64,000 nucleotides of DNA from Cognatundibacterium rivi (lineage in GTDB: Bacteria; Pseudomonadota; Gammaproteobacteria; Burkholderiales; Burkholderiaceae_D): NCBI RefSeq assembly GCF_018139565.1, contig NZ_JAGSPK010000005.1:62001-126000 (forward strand). Direction: 5' to 3'. Shown here piece by piece: positions 57,861 through 64,000 of the stretch (position 1 is the first letter of the stretch; each line of letters starts with the position of its first letter). The notes under the pieces are model-generated. The model saw only the letters and a program-made list of their open reading frames with translations, made no database searches and was not told the DNA's origin. The translations under genes and the position numbers were made by a program.

Positions 57861-57900
57861 AAAAAAACCCTGCATCAGCTGTCTGACGCAGGGCTTTTTT
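57861..57900. terminator. Terminator after the nirK operon
   Basis: AAAAAAACCCTGC / GCAGGGCTTTTTT with a 14-nt loop. It also lies at the distal end of the convergent cassette array. Confidence 0.88.
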
Positions 57901-57926
57901 CTTTTGTCGGCAGGCTGACAGATACG

Positions 57927-58541
57927 TCAGACGACGCTCTTCGGATAGCCAATGTCGTCAGCGTCAGCATAGACTGCACTTAAATCAACATCGGAGTTCA
58001 GCGCCAGAATGAGCGCATCATCCAGCGGCTGATGAGAAAACAGCGCCTCTACCGCCGCAAGCGACACAGCAACTTCGTAGTACTCTTCCGCCCATGCTTG
58101 ATAAGCGGCGGGCGACGACACGATCAGCGCAAGCATGTCATCAGAACCATCATCACTTAAACTGCTGCTGACCTTACTCCAGCCCACGTCGGCCGTTTGT
58201 CGCCAGTAGCAAAAAGTTGCGCGCTCCATAGAAAATGCCGGCTCCAGCAAAAATGACGCAAAATCCGCCGGCACCTGCGCTTGGATGTTGTGAGGAAGCC
58301 CGGCATCGTCGGCCAGTTCGTGTGCGTACCCCTTGAGCGCCGCACCGGCAGCGTCCAGCAGCAAGAACCAGTCATCGCCGCAGCCATTCCGCATCGAAGC
58401 CATTTCTTCACCCTGCCCCCAATGGCGATCAAAGCTGTAATAGCGATATTCCCATTCCGGACAAAGTATCGCATCCAGCATCGCAAGCGATTGCGCGACC
58501 CGGCGTATTTCTGGAATGGATGGTAGTAAATCAGGTGACAT
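57927..58541 (-). CDS. Integron cassette 4 protein, hypothetical (204 aa)
   Basis: No function recognised; soluble, acidic, Trp-rich protein (ECPEWEYRYYSF-type segment: CPEWEYRYYSFDRHWGQGEE; MASMRNGCGDDWFLLLDAAG). The ATG lies 8 bp after the R' core of the preceding attC, the usual cassette layout. On this strand it is the fourth and last gene of the array. Its own attC is missing: the inverse complement of its cassette start (GTATTTAAC) is not found after the stop, where only the nirK-operon terminator follows. The array edge is therefore eroded here. Confidence 0.75.
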   Translation of the reverse strand: MSPDLLPSIPEIRRVAQSLAMLDAILCPEWEYRYYSFDRHWGQGEEMASMRNGCGDDWFLLLDAAGAALKGYAHELADDAGLPHNIQAQVPADFASFLLEPAFSMERATFCYWRQTADVGWSKVSSSLSDDGSDDMLALIVSSPAAYQAWAEEYYEVAVSLAAVEALFSHQPLDDALILALNSDVDLSAVYADADDIGYPKSVV

Positions 58542-58548
58542 GTTTGGT

Positions 58549-58598
58549 ATTTAACGTTTGACGTGAGGCCGCCGTAACGGCGAAGGAAATGGTTAGCC
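58549..58598 (-). other. attC site 3 (integron recombination site)
   Basis: On the minus strand it runs from R'' GGCTAAC (58592-58598) to R' GTTAAAT (58549-58555), about 50 bp with an apical CGCCGTTACGGCG hairpin. It is shorter than most attC sites and its stem is imperfect. Support: GCGGCTAAC at R'' is the exact inverse complement of the start of cassette 3 (GTTAGCCGC), and the TAACGTTTGA side is shared with attC1. Confidence 0.7.
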
Positions 58599-58604
58599 GC
58601 ATTT

Positions 58605-59060
58605 TCAACGAGCCACGGAGACAAGTGAGCGAGCATCAGAATAGGCTCGTTTGAAATTTTTCTCTAGCTCCGGCGAAAGACCAACCAAGATTGTTGCGCT
58701 GCTGTCCCAACATGAGATTTCGAAAAGAGCTCCAGGGAGTTGTGGGTGTCTCTCTCTTCCGTTCCAGTATTCTTGATTTCCCTCAATGTAAGGAATTTTC
58801 GTGACCACAGTTCGGAAACCTTTAGGAACGGCGCTGAATACAGCCCAGATAAACTGTACTTCGTTTTGATCGATGAAGTTTTGTAGGGCTTCGCCATCTA
58901 TCCACTGATCGTCACTTGTGAAGTCGGTACCGTAGTAATTGGTTTCGATATCACTTACAAACCAATCGAAGTCAGCGGCCGAAACGCCTAACGCGGCAAA
59001 CACCAATCGCATGTTGGTAAAAAAACGAACTTGATCGGTGCGTTCGAGAATAAGGTTCAA
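58605..59060 (-). CDS. Integron cassette 3 protein, hypothetical (151 aa)
   Basis: Start probably TTG at 59058-59060, 16 bp inside the cassette; the next in-frame ATG (59012) would cut 16 residues. No clear Shine-Dalgarno. Soluble protein, no signal peptide (MNLILERTDQVRFFTNMRLV; GVSAADFDWFVSDIETNYYG; VQFIWAVFSAVPKGFRTVV). No family recognised. The stop codon is followed within 7 bp by attC3. Confidence 0.7.
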   Translation of the reverse strand: MNLILERTDQVRFFTNMRLVFAALGVSAADFDWFVSDIETNYYGTDFTSDDQWIDGEALQNFIDQNEVQFIWAVFSAVPKGFRTVVTKIPYIEGNQEYWNGRERHPQLPGALFEISCWDSSATILVGLSPELEKNFKRAYSDARSLVSVAR

Positions 59061-59076
59061 AGGGAGACTCTTGAGC

Positions 59077-59163
59077 GGCTAACGTAAAACTAACAGGCGC
59101 TGCATGGCTTTTACGCGCAGCGTCCAGCGACCGAAGGGAGCGGGATTGAGCGCCGGGTTAGGC
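59077..59163 (-). other. attC site 2 (integron recombination site)
   Basis: 87 bp on the minus strand, from R'' GCCTAAC (59157-59163) to R' GTTAGCC (59077-59083). R'' matches RYYYAAC fully. ATCGCCTAAC at the R'' end is the inverse complement of the start of cassette 2 (GTTAGGCGAT). The stop codon TAA of the cassette 2 gene is inside R''. Internal palindromic segments (GGCGCT / AGCGCC) give the folded site. Confidence 0.82.
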
Positions 59164-59475
59164 GATTTCACCGGTGAAAACCTTTCGAATTACTTGCAGG
59201 GTTTCCGATTTTGATACGTCGTCAAGGAACAATATCTCGCCGTTTTCGATCGATGCATCGGAGATTGAAATTTCAAGGTCGTACATTTCGAAGTTCATCG
59301 ATCCAGCGTGTGTGGAGATAGAAAAAAGGAATCTTGACCTAGATGCGAATTTGAAACCAATAGCATCTGTTTTCTCGTTGATTTCTCCAACCCAGCGAAG
59401 TTCATCCTCAGAAAAGTTCTCGAGCAGAAAATCTGCTAGCGATTTAATTGAAAAGAAACCTGGTGTCGGATTCAT
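59158..59475 (-). CDS. Integron cassette 2 protein, hypothetical (105 aa)
   Basis: ATG at 59473-59475, about 10 bp after the cassette boundary. Small soluble protein, no signal peptide (FFSIKSLADFLLENFSEDEL; FASRSRFLFSISTHAGSMNF; DDVSKSETLQVIRKVF). No function recognised. Its stop codon overlaps the attC2 core, an economical arrangement seen in gene cassettes. Confidence 0.78.
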   Translation of the reverse strand: MNPTPGFFSIKSLADFLLENFSEDELRWVGEINEKTDAIGFKFASRSRFLFSISTHAGSMNFEMYDLEISISDASIENGEILFLDDVSKSETLQVIRKVFTGEIA

Positions 59476-59479
59476 GATC

Positions 59480-59539
59480 GCCTAACGTTTGAATTAAGGG
59501 GCTGGCTTTAGCCAGTCCCGCTTGAATGATGGGTTAGGA
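59480..59539 (-). other. attC site 1 (integron recombination site)
   Basis: A textbook 60-bp attC on the minus strand: R'' TCCTAAC (59533-59539), L'' region CATTCAAGCGGGACTGGC, a small TAAA loop, L' region GCCAGCCCCTTAATTCAAAC, and R' GTTAGGC (59480-59486). The two halves fold into one stem with unpaired bases. GACTCCTAAC at R'' is the exact inverse complement of the start of cassette 1 (GTTAGGAGTC). Confidence 0.88.
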
Positions 59540-59546
59540 GTCTCTT

Positions 59547-59978
59547 TCACAGGCACATCCATAGCAGCAAAGGCTTGCTTTCCGCCTTAGCTCGCAATGC
59601 GAACTCTGCCAGCATGCTGACTACAGGCTGAATGTCCGAGCCAGACCAGCCTTCGAATTTCAGTTCTTCATGCGACGCCCAACGCTCGGCGACGGCGGGG
59701 ACATCTGCTTCGGGTAGCCGGGAGAGGAGGTCTTTAAGTTGTTCTGGCAGCGCGAACACCCATGGTCCTTCAGGATCGGGGTTGAATACCAGCAACTCTT
59801 CACCTTCAAGTTTCTGGGCTGGCTCCTCTGCATCCAGCGCTGAGAGTAGCGCTGACAGCTTTATGTTGTCGAGCCCTTTTAGCTGTAGGCACGGCCATGC
59901 CTTGTGATGCGCTAAATCTTGACTGATTGCCTCAGCTTCTGAGGGATGTGCAATGAGTATGTCTGTGAGAAGGGACAT
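59547..59978 (-). CDS. Integron cassette 1 protein, hypothetical (143 aa)
   Basis: Start at ATG 59976-59978 (143 aa); the longer frame reads through the attI. AGGAG, spaced 4 bp before the ATG, is part of the recombination core, so the integron junction supplies the ribosome binding site. Product: MSLLTDILIAHPSEAEAISQ, AWPCLQLKGLDNIKLSALL, GPWVFALPEQLKDLLSRLP, KPLLLWMCL. This type of protein is familiar from cassette arrays, but no function is known to me. It is the cassette nearest attI, hence best placed for expression. Confidence 0.82.
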   Translation of the reverse strand: MSLLTDILIAHPSEAEAISQDLAHHKAWPCLQLKGLDNIKLSALLSALDAEEPAQKLEGEELLVFNPDPEGPWVFALPEQLKDLLSRLPEADVPAVAERWASHEELKFEGWSGSDIQPVVSMLAEFALRAKAESKPLLLWMCL

Positions 59979-59983
59979 AAGAC

Positions 59984-60050
59984 TCCTAACTTGTTTTAAA
60001 GTGCAAAATGGCAAAATATCAGCCAGATGAAAAATAAGCAACAAGTTTCA
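59984..60050 (-). other. attI-like integron insertion site
   Basis: On the minus strand the core TAAAACAAGTTAGGA (59984-59998) closely matches the end of class 1 attI1 (TAAAACAAAGTTAGGC from memory), with the crossover G at 59990. No attC-type partner core lies upstream, so this is an attI rather than a fourth attC. The outer limit (60050) is a guess based on typical attI length. Confidence 0.7.
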
Positions 60051-60085
60051 ATGCGTGGCAAGTTCTTGTCTGATCTGGTTTTTTC

Positions 60086-60113
60086 GTTATACTGATTAAA
60101 AATACAGTATAAC
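60086..60113 (+). promoter_or_regulatory. LexA-type operator at the expected integrase promoter
   Basis: GTTATACTG and CAGTATAAC are perfect 9-bp inverted arms around a 10-bp AT-rich centre (60095-60104), meeting the CTG-N10-CAG spacing of LexA boxes. It lies about 95 bp from the attI core, where SOS-controlled intI promoters sit, and is followed by ACAGGAG (60115-60121), a good Shine-Dalgarno sequence. No start codon or integrase sequence follows. Confidence 0.65.
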
Positions 60114-60223
60114 AACAGGAGCCTGCCTGCGTTCGTCTCAGGCTCAAATACGTCGGGACATCACGTCAGTTGGGCGCACAGACGCATGCGCCCAAATCCT
60201 TGGGGAAAATGCTCTCATCGTGC
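60114..60223 (+). other. Integrase position with no integrase gene
   Basis: All three plus-strand frames after the LexA box and ribosome binding site were translated by eye. None shows tyrosine-recombinase motifs, and one frame runs about 40 codons to a stop inside repeat copy C. No function is assigned; the segment 60114-60439 otherwise contains the repeat and a terminator. Confidence 0.55.
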
Positions 60224-60301
60224 ATACTCCCCCCTGTTTTTTATAAAACACCCCAAATCTCAGCATAAACATTGGGCTTGTAGATATACCCCGGGGAGTA
60301 T
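60224..60301. repeat. 78-bp palindromic repeat, copy C
   Basis: Left end ATACTCCCCCC (60224-60234), right end GGGGAGTAT (60293-60301), inverted, with inner AAAACACCCC. It is exactly 78 bp, as is copy B. Its reverse complement shares ATGCTGAGA and the GTGTTTTAT segment with copy A. It lies between the integron remnant and the DUF2855 gene. Confidence 0.72.
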
Positions 60302-60370
60302 ATTTTCGGGGTTTGAAGGGCTTGAAAAGCGCTTGGAAAGCACCTGAGGCTGCCAGCCAACGCGGTGAGC

Positions 60371-60411
60371 ACAAAAAAATAAGAGGCAGGAAGTCGGGTG
60401 ACTTGCCTGCA
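60371..60411 (-). terminator. Terminator after the DUF2855 gene
   Basis: On the minus strand GCAGGCAAGTC / GACTTCCTGC forms a stem with one bulge and is followed by CTCTTATTTTTTTG. It lies 29 bp past the stop codon. Confidence 0.75.
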
Positions 60412-60439
60412 CTCTGAAAAGATTAGTTATGAAACTCGT

Positions 60440-61561
60440 TTAATCCAGTGGACGGCACAGCGACAGCACATGCCCCTGATCCGGCCGGGCGGCACCGTTC
60501 AGCATCGCTTCATAGACCTGACGTACATGGTCTTCGCCATAACCGTGGCTGATTTGCATCCACGGTTTTTCAGCCGCCATGACGGGTTGCATGAAGGCTT
60601 GCCATGCGTCTGCAAGGCGTTTCTGTACGCCGCCCGGGCCCCAGTCTGTCATGCGTTTTTTGATTTGTGCCGGGGCAAAAAACAGGGTTGGCCTGGCACC
60701 CGGCAAACCGGATGCACCGCTGAGTTCGTCCCAGTGCGTGCCGCCAACGGCGCAGCTGTATTTCATGTTGTCACCAAAATGATGATGCAACTGGCTGCGC
60801 AACTGCCCGTTGCCCGCCATATCGACATACACCACGGCCTGATCGGCTGCCAGTGTGGCGACCTGGTCATAGCTGATGACCTGATCGTAAATGCCCATAT
60901 TGCGGACAAATTCCAGATTCGCCGCCGAGGTCAGACCGATCACCTTGCAGGCTTTGTCCTTGCGCTGCGACAGCATGAATGCGAGGCCATACGCCGTTTT
61001 GCTGGAGGCGCTGGAAATCAGCACCGATTGCGCACCGAAAAACTGGTTGTCATCCAGAAAATCATCAATCATGAAGGATGTGATAAACAGCGGCCGCAGC
61101 AGCACTTGTACGTCTTCCGATTCTTTGGTGTAGCCGGGGTCGGTCGTGGTTCTGACGTAATGGTTATACAAGCCATGCATGGCCTGACGGTGTTCAGCGC
61201 CATCCATAAAACCGGCGTCGGAAACGCGGGTCGCATTTACAGTCAGATGCGTCGCCATCGGGTAGTAGCCGTAGAAACGTTCGCCGACTTGCACACCATC
61301 GGCTTTGGACGCGATCACGTCGGCAAAGCCCCAGACCGGAATATTGCCCCAGCCATCTTCCGTAGGAAAGAAATTCCAGTATTGCATGGCCTCGCCAAAA
61401 GCGGCGTAGGTCACGTTATTGGAGGTGAACGCAAAACGGTCTATTTGCAGCAACACCTGTCCGTCTTGCAGCTCGCCCTGCGTTGGCACACGTAAGGGAA
61501 TAAATCTGGATTCGGGTAAGTGGCTTTTGTTGACGATGAATTCTTTCGGCTGGATGGTCAT
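60440..61561 (-). CDS. DUF2855 family protein, MDR-like
   Basis: 373 aa. The family pattern is clear: MTIQPKEFIVNKSHLPESRF, DRFAFTSNNVTYAAFGEAMQYWNFFP, WGNIPVWGFADVIAS, LISSASSKTAYGLAFML, and AVGGTHWDEL. It has the two-part layout of medium-chain reductases but lacks a canonical nucleotide-binding GxGxxG. Unknown function; sometimes linked with polyketide or lipid reductions in other genomes. Coding density and a strong terminator support it. Confidence 0.88.
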   Translation of the reverse strand: MTIQPKEFIVNKSHLPESRFIPLRVPTQGELQDGQVLLQIDRFAFTSNNVTYAAFGEAMQYWNFFPTEDGWGNIPVWGFADVIASKADGVQVGERFYGYYPMATHLTVNATRVSDAGFMDGAEHRQAMHGLYNHYVRTTTDPGYTKESEDVQVLLRPLFITSFMIDDFLDDNQFFGAQSVLISSASSKTAYGLAFMLSQRKDKACKVIGLTSAANLEFVRNMGIYDQVISYDQVATLAADQAVVYVDMAGNGQLRSQLHHHFGDNMKYSCAVGGTHWDELSGASGLPGARPTLFFAPAQIKKRMTDWGPGGVQKRLADAWQAFMQPVMAAEKPWMQISHGYGEDHVRQVYEAMLNGAARPDQGHVLSLCRPLD

Positions 61562-61960
61562 GTCTCGTTATCTGTTTTATTAAAAAATGCAGTATTGCAT
61601 GTTTTTTGACATCTTTTTTTATTGCCCGCCGTTGCGATTCAAAAAAACCGTCTCGCCACTATCGGCGACCGCGTTTGGTCTTATTGGCAACGCAGCCGAT
61701 GCCATTATTTATCCGGCTCAGGCTACAAAAGGCTTCGTGACGGGCAAATTTGGCGTGTTTCGCAAAAACCAGCACGGTGACAAAAACACCAACAACAAAA
61801 TAAAAGCACAAAACGCACCAAGATGGACATTGAATATTCCACCCAAACACAAGACAGGAAATTAAAGTCGGAATGCACCAATCTGAACATCACATTGGTG
61901 CGCCGCAATAAAAATGAGTCAATCAGAGTTCGATTTCAGGAATTAAATAATCAAACGACG

Positions 61961-61988
61961 AAAAAAAAGCCCGCATTTGCGGGCTTAA
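61961..61988 (-). terminator. Orphan terminator-like hairpin in a gene-poor spacer
   Basis: AAGCCCGC-ATTT-GCGGGCTT (61967-61986) with a run of eight A on the plus strand, i.e. T8 on the minus strand. It is the form of a minus-strand rho-independent terminator, yet no minus-strand gene exists between it and the barrel gene at 62302. CTGCAACGCAG (62031-62041), a TGC-N3-GCA palindrome like PhaR sites, lies nearby. The spacer 61562-62301 contains no convincing gene; short open frames in it have poor composition. Confidence 0.5.
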
Positions 61989-62301
61989 ATCCAAAACCTA
62001 TGAGGTGTTGGAGGAGACAGTTCCAATATACTGCAACGCAGCAAAAATATCTACCTCAATGACAAAAAAAGACCAATATTTTTTCATTTGCGAAAATTAA
62101 GGACTCTTTAAGACAAACTAGTTGCTTCAAACATACACATTACAAGCAATGCAATGATTGTGTTTGCGACAACAATATTAAAAATGTAAAATGTTTATTG
62201 GCGTTTATTTAACGAAATTAACTTGAGTCAACGTCTGATTCTGGTGCTGCCAGATACGTTCAGGCACATCACTTACTTATTTTTATAAAAAAAATTTACA
62301 C

Positions 62302-62871
62302 ATGATTAAGAAAAATATTATCGCTGCAGCTCTGCTCGCTACTGGTTTCGCTATGAGCGCAAGCGCATCCGCACAGGCTTATGTTGGCGGCACAGTTGGT
62401 CAGGCAAGATGGAATGTAGACTGCCAGGGTGCAGCTCAGTGCGATAAAACAGACACAGCATTTAAATTGCTGGGTGGACTGGATCTGTACCCTAACATCG
62501 CGGTAGAAGCCAGCTACTTCTCCCTCGGCAAAGCAACTGCAAGCGCGAGCGGCCTCAAAGGTGAATTCAAAGCAAGCGGCGTTGACCTCGTTGGCGTATT
62601 CAAAACTACACCAGTCAATGGTTTCGTTGGTTTCGCTAAATTGGGCGTTGGCTACATCAAAGGCGAAGCAACTGTCTCCGTCGGTGGTCTGTCAGGATCA
62701 ACTTCCAAAAATTCCGCACAAGCGGTTGCAGGTTTGGGTGTGACATATCAACTCACAAACAATGTCAGCCTGCGCGCTGAATACGAACGTCGCGATGCAA
62801 AAGTTGCTGACGTCGACGGCACAAAAGCAACGATCTCTAACTTCTCCGTTGGTGCGCAATACGCATTCTGA
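62302..62871 (+). CDS. Outer-membrane beta-barrel protein (OmpA-like / OmpW-like, 8 strands)
   Basis: 189 aa. A signal peptide ending ASASAQA-YVGG, alternating hydrophobic strands, and a terminal Phe (VGAQYAF) typical of outer-membrane proteins. Two Cys close together (VDCQGAAQCDK) probably form a disulfide. Composition is low in Trp and rich in Ala, Gly, Ser and Lys. It stands alone with a terminator. The leader upstream is unusually AT-rich. The molecular role is not predictable. Confidence 0.88.
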   Translation: MIKKNIIAAALLATGFAMSASASAQAYVGGTVGQARWNVDCQGAAQCDKTDTAFKLLGGLDLYPNIAVEASYFSLGKATASASGLKGEFKASGVDLVGVFKTTPVNGFVGFAKLGVGYIKGEATVSVGGLSGSTSKNSAQAVAGLGVTYQLTNNVSLRAEYERRDAKVADVDGTKATISNFSVGAQYAF

Positions 62872-62900
62872 TGCATTGATTGCCCCGCGCAATCCATCAT

Positions 62901-62932
62901 AAAAAAAGGCATGCTCAGGCATGCCTTTTTTA
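62901..62932 (+). terminator. Terminator after the outer-membrane protein gene
   Basis: AAAAAAAGGCATG-CTCAG-GCATGCCTTTTTT with perfect stem and T-tract. Confidence 0.92.
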
Positions 62933-63118
62933 TTGAACAATACACTCACAATATTGAGTCACCCAGACCGTACTCTGACTCAGCGATGATCTTCGCGAGA
63001 AAATCGCCATCAGCGATCATTCCTTTCACATCACTTGCTGAAATACGGTGCGGTCTCAGGGCGTAGTAAATTTCAGATATGATCGCCGTTCCGAATCATT
63101 ATCTGAAAGTACACAAGC

Positions 63119-63688
63119 ATGTCGAATTCCTTTTTATCCAAAGACCAGCCAGACAGATTAAGTAAAACCAGCCGCGCATTGCATTGGCTGATCGCACTAG
63201 GCATGGTCGCGCTGCTTTGCGTTGGCATCATCATGACGGAAAATGAGCTATGGAATCTCTACGACCTGCATAAATCGATAGGTTTACTGCTGTCGGTGTT
63301 GATTATTTTTCGTGTGATCTGGAGAGCGGTAAATGGCTGGCCGCATCCGGCCGGGCACTATCGTCCGGTTGAAAAATTTTTAGGAAAAATCACGCACTGG
63401 GGTTTAATCATTGGCAGCGTTCTTATACCTGTGTTTGGCATGATGCACTCGGGTTTCAGTGGACATGGCTTTGGAATTTTCGGGCTGGAACTGGTCAAAG
63501 AAAACCCGGATCCACAACGCGTTAACGAGGTGCTCCCTATCTGGGAAGCCGGATATAAATTCGGTCAGGCAGGTCATCAGTACGTCAGTTATCTGCTGAT
63601 ATGCCTTCTGGTTTTACATATCGCTGGCGCGCTGAAACATCACATTGTCGATAAAGATAAAACCTTGCTGCGTATGCTGGGAAAATAA
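63119..63688 (+). CDS. Cytochrome b561 family protein
   Basis: 189 aa, four membrane helices. Haem-ligand histidines are visible: RALHWLIAL, LHKSIGLLLSV, KITHWGLIIGS, and HQYVSYLLICLLVLHIAGALKHHIVDKD, matching the CybB-type di-haem pattern. It likely transfers electrons between quinol and periplasmic partners. It stands alone, between two terminators. Confidence 0.93.
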   Translation: MSNSFLSKDQPDRLSKTSRALHWLIALGMVALLCVGIIMTENELWNLYDLHKSIGLLLSVLIIFRVIWRAVNGWPHPAGHYRPVEKFLGKITHWGLIIGSVLIPVFGMMHSGFSGHGFGIFGLELVKENPDPQRVNEVLPIWEAGYKFGQAGHQYVSYLLICLLVLHIAGALKHHIVDKDKTLLRMLGK

Positions 63689-63692
63689 ATCT

Positions 63693-63730
63693 CAAAAAAA
63701 AGCCGGTGTATTGCAACACCGGCTTTTTTC
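63693..63730. terminator. Bidirectional terminator after the cytochrome b561 gene
   Basis: AAAAAAAGCCGGTGT-ATTGCA-ACACCGGCTTTTTT between two convergent genes. Confidence 0.93.
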
Positions 63731-63798
63731 ACTTCTTTCGCTGCCTGGAATGCCTTTCATTCACTGCATTCATTTTTTACGGAAGGCAGCCCGGCAGC

Positions 63799-64000
63799 TT
63801 ATTCCTCTGCGTGATTATGTGAATAATCATTGGCTTCTACCGGTACGTTCACACCGTTGATACCTTCAAAGAAGAAAGGCTTGCGGGCTTTTTTGCTTGC
63901 GCCGGTTTCATTCATGCTGGCGGTATCATATAAGCGGCCATTGATCATCACCTGAGTGATGCGGTCAGACTGGCGAATGTCTTTCAGCACATCGCCATCA
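63799..64000 (-). CDS. Amidohydrolase family protein, C-terminal end only
   Basis: Minus-strand frame entering from the right edge; only the last 66 codons are present. The tail (DGDVLKDIRQSDRITQVMINGRLY; ASMNETG; RKPFFFEGI) is typical of the C-terminal composite domain of imidazolonepropionase-like amidohydrolases. The catalytic barrel lies outside the window. The extreme C-terminus (NDYSHNHAEE) is His/acidic-rich. Confidence 0.75.
   Translation of the reverse strand, partial: DGDVLKDIRQSDRITQVMINGRLYDTASMNETGASKKARKPFFFEGINGVNVPVEANDYSHNHAEE

Follow-up and report, generated by a model that had tools for sequence, protein, structure and literature searches.

How does a chromosomal integron array that has no integrase of its own come by its cassettes? 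Integrons are usually described as pairing, in cis, a single integrase gene (intI) with a single attachment site (attI), and an array that has no intI is often taken for a relic. The array that raises the question here lies on the minus strand of a 64,000-nucleotide window, by which we mean the whole stretch of DNA analysed, on a 349,562-base contig of Cognatundibacterium rivi, an Undibacterium genome that we refer to as G000. Read from 60120 down to 57927, it consists of a palindrome with a LexA-type box, an attI site, three cassettes each with an attC site, and a gene of 204 amino acids. A sequence-only reading had called the array immobile, barring an integrase supplied in trans. This was the right reading, and the window turns out to hold one of many intI-less attI platforms in this genome and in the genus. 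We regard it as probable that the array is an orphan promoter-attI platform, loaded by the integrase IntI in trans and frozen in G000. By itself the window locus is what one would ordinarily expect; the point of interest is the genus pattern, in which docks are many and integrases few.

Recombination signatures in the window array

If a cassette was once circular, the ten bases at its start are expected to be reverse-complementary to the end of its own attC. This is what the sequence-only reading had reported, and the match holds for all three cassettes: cassette 1 starts with GTTAGGAGTC at 59990, which complements GACTCCTAAC at 59542-59533 at 10/10 letters (29 AAC positions tested), cassette 2 starts with GTTAGGCGAT at 59486, complementing ATCGCCTAAC at 59166-59157 at 10/10 (23 AAC positions), and cassette 3 starts with GTTAGCCGCT at 59083, complementing TGCGGCTAAC at 58601-58592 at 9/10 (17 AAC positions). 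For a fourth boundary, GTTAAATACC at 58555, no closing partner was found (best score 3; 14 AAC positions tested), so that the last gene is without an attC. The proposed layout of four genes and three attC sites is thus confirmed, with the addition, missed in that reading, that no attC follows gene 4.

The three attC sites themselves (attC1 at 59479..59543, attC2 at 59075..59167 and attC3 at 58548..58602, all on the minus strand) were assessed with two covariance models. The first, R2, was built from 13 attC1-like sequences including attC1 of the window and was run on both strands of the 64 kb. Its best three matches are attC1, attC3 and attC2 (59076-59167), all on the minus strand; the fourth is attC1 on the opposite strand (E 1.1). 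The three sites that had been proposed from the letters therefore rank at the top, although only attC1 scores strongly, being a sequence on which R2 was trained (E 7.5e-18), and the untrained sites attC3 (E 0.061) and attC2 (E 0.69) are weak. The second model, R3, was built from 14 attC2-like sites; it gives attC2 E 7.8e-24, the window site being one of its training sequences, and does not find attC1 or attC3. attC3 is short, and no clear partner for its L box was seen; its R'' is what complements the start of cassette 3. On the recombining strand attC1 folds well compared with shuffled sequences (z -2.5). Consensus folding of the attC1-like sites yields only 5 pairs, so that the attC models rest mostly on primary sequence. 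An attC finder of our own with strict box geometry was dropped, having missed attC2 and attC3 of the window.

Upstream of the array, where an attI-like core had been noted, a model of the attI module (the palindrome with its LexA-type box plus attI) matches 59987..60120 on the minus strand with 87.5 bits in nhmmer, the window being one of the 27 training rows of that model. The core GTT occupies 59990-59988, with crossover predicted after the G at 59990, and the first cassette, which closes at 10/10, is joined exactly there. Could cassettes simply have been inserted at a chance genomic site of the attG type, or the whole pattern have arisen by chance? Insertions at attG sites are reported for other hosts, as cited in the available parts of PMC12444791 and PMC12901181. 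Here, a full attI module is present, homologous to modules beside intact intI genes, and the boundary closures and attC models agree with each other; we consider this explanation exceedingly improbable.

What the array lacks is the integrase. Protein hidden Markov models (HMMs) give no intI match in the 1.3 kb upstream of the array, in keeping with the absence already remarked upon from the letters, and the genome, which is rated 100% complete, contains no match to TIGR02249 over the cut-off. The best TIGR02249 matches in G000 are split and low-scoring; matches of the same kind occur in 42 of the 43 genus genomes and in 14 control genomes, and we read them as XerC/XerD-like recombinases. Measured against a complete integron, the window thus has cassettes 1-3 ending in attC and a cassette joined at the attI core, with no intI beside it. 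It also fits the description of a cluster of attC sites lacking integron-integrases (CALIN), namely at least two attC sites and no integrase gene nearby.

Cassettes differ between species at attI sites without intI

The sequence-only reading implied that cassette content should vary among relatives, and the locus is indeed not fixed: in the sister species U. aquatile (genome G033) the flanks, attI and the last gene (57927..58541, minus strand; L041 3860-4474 in U. aquatile) are shared with the window, and the cassettes between them are different. The same picture emerges at other orthologous orphan attI loci. In six of seven comparisons, sequences are 90-93% identical from about 2 kb upstream as far as core position +3 to +5; past the core, they carry different cassettes over 0.65 to 5.9 kb, and then identity resumes. 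The comparisons involve four loci: the window and U. aquatile, one locus in U. baiyunense, U. fentianense and U. macrobrachii (three comparisons), and two more in U. baiyunense and U. macrobrachii. Moreover, in U. macrobrachii, which has a single intI above the cut-off (at C4), the first 201-202 bp after three attI sites are identical. One of these sites (L122) has an intact intI and two (L121 and L196) have none, and the three are unrelated in their upstream DNA once past the attI module.

One way to account for such differences might be that whole arrays were exchanged between strains by homologous recombination through the conserved flanks, with no involvement of IntI in trans. Both flanks are conserved, hence the route is possible, and in G000 and G033 alike no intI passes the cut-off. 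Exchange of this kind leaves unexplained, however, why one cassette start should be found at three U. macrobrachii attI sites with unrelated upstream DNA, and why six of the seven comparisons should have their break at the core nucleotides. We therefore think it unlikely as the source of the pattern. Under trans loading, cassettes would have been placed at the window core by an IntI supplied either from another locus of an ancestor or from outside, and once placed would be expressed from a promoter within the module. With IntI no longer present, the array in G000 would be frozen until an IntI arrives.

The cassette that starts with GTTCCCTGGA (at L121, L122 and L196 in U. macrobrachii and at L110 in U. 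baiyunense) carries a perfect LexA operator, CTGTATGTTTATACAG, before a very short frame; these are the same letters as in the operator upstream of the dinB-like gene of G000, and the cassette is possibly SOS-controlled. A different kind of junction is seen when G000 at C6:28353 (L278, about 2853) is compared with its orphan-attI orthologue in U. aquatile (L109). There the G000 cassette is joined at an inner GTT of attI, and the usual core is missing. Several further matches to the attI model likewise end near position 112-120. From L197 compared with genomes G030 and G008, an empty site was not obtained.

In two further genomes, G013 and G029, the DNA runs as in the window up to 57905, continues for about 100 bases, and is followed by DNA matching 63817-64000. 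The missing block, 57905-63817, holds the array, attI, and DUF2855, OmpW-like and cytochrome b561-like genes (the last two named by reading), and has either arrived in the lineage of G000 and G033 or been lost in the others. For the order of species we have only the pairwise identities of two loci (G000-G033 89.6/93.8%, G000-G029 87.3/91.2%, G000-G013 88.2/88.7%); a five-species tree on 1.75 kb was set aside as unresolved (75/84).

Many attI modules, few integrases

To what extent is the window locus typical? The attI model, a sequence-only model of 27 modules (alignment A1), has 13 matches in G000, five of them strong. Across the genus it matches in 29 of 43 genomes, with up to 14 matches per genome and 141 in total when per-genome counts are summed, 55 of them at 40 bits or more; counts in the training genomes are partly by construction, since the 27 training sites are found again, and in at least one instance two of the 141 overlap on opposite strands (G032:C83:34530, plus strand, being one of them). 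In 149 further genomes of the order the model matches nothing. (Runs over 40 genomes used stricter filters, by which weak matches were lost in genus and control alike.) Matches to intI over the cut-off number 16 in the genus, one of them with stops, and are confined to 12 of the 43 genomes. An exact 20-mer attI pattern, searched in all species genomes, occurs in 28 stretches, of which 20 are in Undibacterium or Oxalobacteraceae records; the remaining eight, in unrelated groups (Veillonella, Lactobacillus and others), were taken for chance.

Among the loci that we read in detail, 61 distinct attI sites score at least 28 bits; they are a subset of the 141, and the upstream DNA read is 1.3 kb for all but two. 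By protein HMM, three of the 61 have a full-length intI upstream, five a partial one and 53 none. Forty of the 61 have 3 kb of downstream sequence and a GTT at the core, and at 16 of the 40 the first cassette closes at nine or more letters, compared with 128 of 6720 random GTT positions from the same loci, a null set that includes real cassette starts. This strict test replaced a loose one, for which the null stood at 468 in 5000. In one locus of U. flavidum (L117, C92), three attI sites lie within 5.4 kb. Two of them stand behind near-identical 3' ends of an SNF2-type helicase gene (identified by reading its translation), a tandem duplication of an attI locus.

Is this, then, simply a population of dead integrons? 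Imagine that intI was recently deleted at the window, leaving a fossil array, and that the other attI copies are further integrons in decay. Some observations fit such a scenario. At C5:342 kb of G000 an N-terminal intI fragment with two stops adjoins a second attI, and upstream of the attI sites at C5:419 kb and 421 kb the DNA resembles this truncated intI, even though protein HMMs find nothing there. The truncation has an identical junction in G013 and G029, from which we infer that it is older than the split of these two; at the orthologous place in U. aquatile there is no match to the fragment, and no intI over the cut-off is present in any of G000, G033, G029 and G013. In addition, intI pseudogenes and CALINs are described as common in the accessible sections of PMC2426708 and PMC9668308.

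Three observations argue against decay as a satisfactory explanation. First, 53 of the 61 attI sites have no protein-level trace of intI upstream. Second, a comparison of 17 intI-less loci has pairwise identity dropping from 0.60 (at -135 to -121) to 0.31 at -135 and staying at roughly 0.30-0.37 beyond it, and this drop coincides with the position where intI would start. Third, first cassettes differ between species that share an intI-less upstream flank. All in all, we find a dead integron an implausible account of the locus. Given that the 17 loci share a unit ending at about -135, the attI module may have spread by itself, without intI. We tentatively propose, at slightly less than even confidence, that promoter-attI modules without intI, having mostly shed LexA control, are independent docks scattered over the chromosome; one or a few IntI proteins per genome would load them in trans or, in genomes left with none, an IntI from outside would do so.

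A number of findings weigh against trans loading, either at the window or in the genus. Both G000 and its sister U. aquatile lack IntI, so that neither offers a trans donor for the window locus. The recombining strands of attC2 (z -0.3) and attC3 (z -0.9) fold no better than shuffles. At 24 of the 40 attI sites the first cassette does not close at nine letters. One orthologous comparison (U. baiyunense L110-17323 against U. macrobrachii L120+2081) has no break at the core, upstream homology ending at -485/-239. At the three U. macrobrachii sites the shared cassette can be followed for about 200 bp only, at which point L122 and L196 both reach an N. And at least two of the 53 sites counted as having no intI, both in L040 (11.3 and 13.6 kb), are similar in DNA sequence to the 5' end of a truncated intI; these two are treated as remnants when motif retention is compared.

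A putative promoter retained while the LexA box erodes

The LexA-type operator of the window, CTGTATTTTTAATCAG at 60092..60107, bears out the LexA box of the sequence-only reading; what that reading had not seen is that one of its eight half-site letters is a mismatch. At 7/8 it equals the operator of the intact U. rugosum site. In G000, recA and a dinB-like gene (both named by sequence reading) each have a perfect operator of this type upstream. Overlapping the box by one base, TGTTATAC (60107..60114, minus strand; 8/8 here) is proposed as an extended -10 element directed toward the cassettes, and hence as a putative cassette promoter. On the plus strand, toward the would-be intI, a consensus scan returned a weak sigma-70-like site, TTGTCT-16-TATACT at 60066..60093, one site being found as against 2.2 expected by chance; the scan found no cassette-facing site in the module.

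How have these elements fared in modules that have no integrase? In the 19 orphan modules of alignment A1, some of which are orthologous, cassette-facing TGTTATAC is retained at a mean of 7.3 of 8 letters and LexA letters at a mean of 4.3 of 8, compared with 7.7 in three intI-bearing modules. The intI-facing copy of the motif falls in between (mean 6.4 of 8). Of the 8 sites that have intI or a remnant of it, 7 score 7 or more for LexA, as against 9 of the 53 counted as having no intI (Fisher p 0.0002), a comparison in which the sites are not independent because some are orthologues. Orphan modules would thus tend toward loss of the predicted SOS control.

This asymmetry invites the suggestion that what now preserves the module is its use as a promoter for downstream genes and that it no longer serves recombination, a suggestion that the strong retention of TGTTATAC and the erosion of the LexA letters both favour. 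If that were all, we would not expect the attI core, which a promoter does not need, to be the most conserved part of the module (pairwise identity over the 17 loci without intI is 0.88 at -15 to -1, next to the core). Nor would we expect the intI-facing motif to be largely kept in orphans, and the consensus scan finds no promoter facing the cassettes. A promoter-only role accordingly strikes us as improbable, and we continue to favour loading of a promoter-attI platform in trans.

Perfect ACTGTN8ACAGT palindromes occur six times in G000, at C5:126243, 144949, 162417, 168414 and 900601 and at C10:16524. One precedes recA and one the dinB-like gene, two are in orphan attI modules, one falls within an open reading frame (ORF) and one comes before an ORF of 170 amino acids; the count alone is meaningless, as a backwards control pattern gives 11 per strand. 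Perfect LexA boxes are present at two G000 sites with weaker attI matches, C5:144.9 kb and C5:162.4 kb. At the former the first cassette closes at 10/10, and at the latter an attC2-like site, itself a training row of the attC2 model, follows attI.

Relation to known integrons

Already on record, in the portions consulted of PMC9668308, PMC2426708, PMC12901181, PMC12444791 and PMC8618304, are CALINs, Delta-attI cassettes and intI pseudogenes, which make up about one third of intI genes; the last of these papers includes the loss of a recognisable intI among the proposals for how CALINs arise. The window resembles a CALIN in having three attC sites and an intI that is found neither nearby nor intact in the genome. 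Unlike a CALIN, it keeps a full attI module with a LexA-type box, such modules are many per genome, and first cassettes vary at the core between species. With the sedentary chromosomal integrons of Xanthomonas that have a lost or truncated intI, as presented in the available text of PMC12444791, it shares a chromosomal location, an array that outlives the integrase and lineage-specific cassettes; those integrons have one main ancestral locus, whereas here attI loci are many per genome and most have no protein-level trace of intI. Delta-attI cassettes of class 1 and 2 integrons (PMC12901181, in part) are similar in that attI sequence appears at unusual and multiple positions, but in them a partial attI replaces the attC behind a gene, whereas the window has a full module, with its upstream palindrome, before the array. 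There is also a likeness to class 1 integrons: the IntI of U. rugosum and plasmid IntI1 share 60.4% identity over 317 amino acids, and the attI1 core AAACAAAGTTRRRY, as given in the part of PMC12901181 available to us, is close to AAAACAAGTTAGGAG of the window. Unlike a class 1 integron, the window site is without intI and was not seen on a plasmid, plasmids having been searched by IntI protein only.

That IntI acts on an attI of another molecule is routine in assays, to judge from the accessible text of PMC9892861. In the open-licence literature, judged mostly from search listings, we found no account of genomes that each have many orphan attI sites. If orphan docks are indeed filled in trans, the number of places for capture and expression in a cell would be set by copies of attI, not by integrase genes, and searches aware of attI would be needed alongside those for intI and attC. 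Undibacterium supplies ready pairs of loci for testing trans loading.

Gene content and surroundings

None of the four proteins encoded in the array has a match in Pfam, NCBIfam or PADLOC. Cassette 1 (59547..59978, 143 amino acids) and cassette 2 (59158..59475, 105 amino acids) encode proteins of no known family; for the former, a protein database search found 12 proteins, itself counted. The product of cassette 3 (58605..59060, TTG start, 151 amino acids) is widespread and occurs in cassettes elsewhere. It has 424 matches at E <= 0.001, and one of the 120 matches listed, a relative from Hydrogenophaga, is named 'Integron gene cassette pro...'. The protein of the last gene has 739 matches at the same threshold. 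All four genes are on the minus strand. Between the last gene and a convergent SCO1-like gene, near 57861-57900, lies a terminator-like inverted repeat, read by eye and visible as an inverted match in the locus comparison; a consensus scan of the window did not list it.

On the other side of the array, a match to the Betaproteobacteria toxic small RNA (Rfam RF02278) at 61961-62019 on the minus strand scores 51.6 bits, with a gathering score of 50. Closer to the attI module, 60221-60327 is a copy of a dispersed repeat of about 100 bp that carries the palindrome ATATACCCCGGGGAGTATAT and has at least 40 matches in G000; window copy aside, its five best copies lie within about 4 kb of the attI-model matches C10:196640 and C5:71105.

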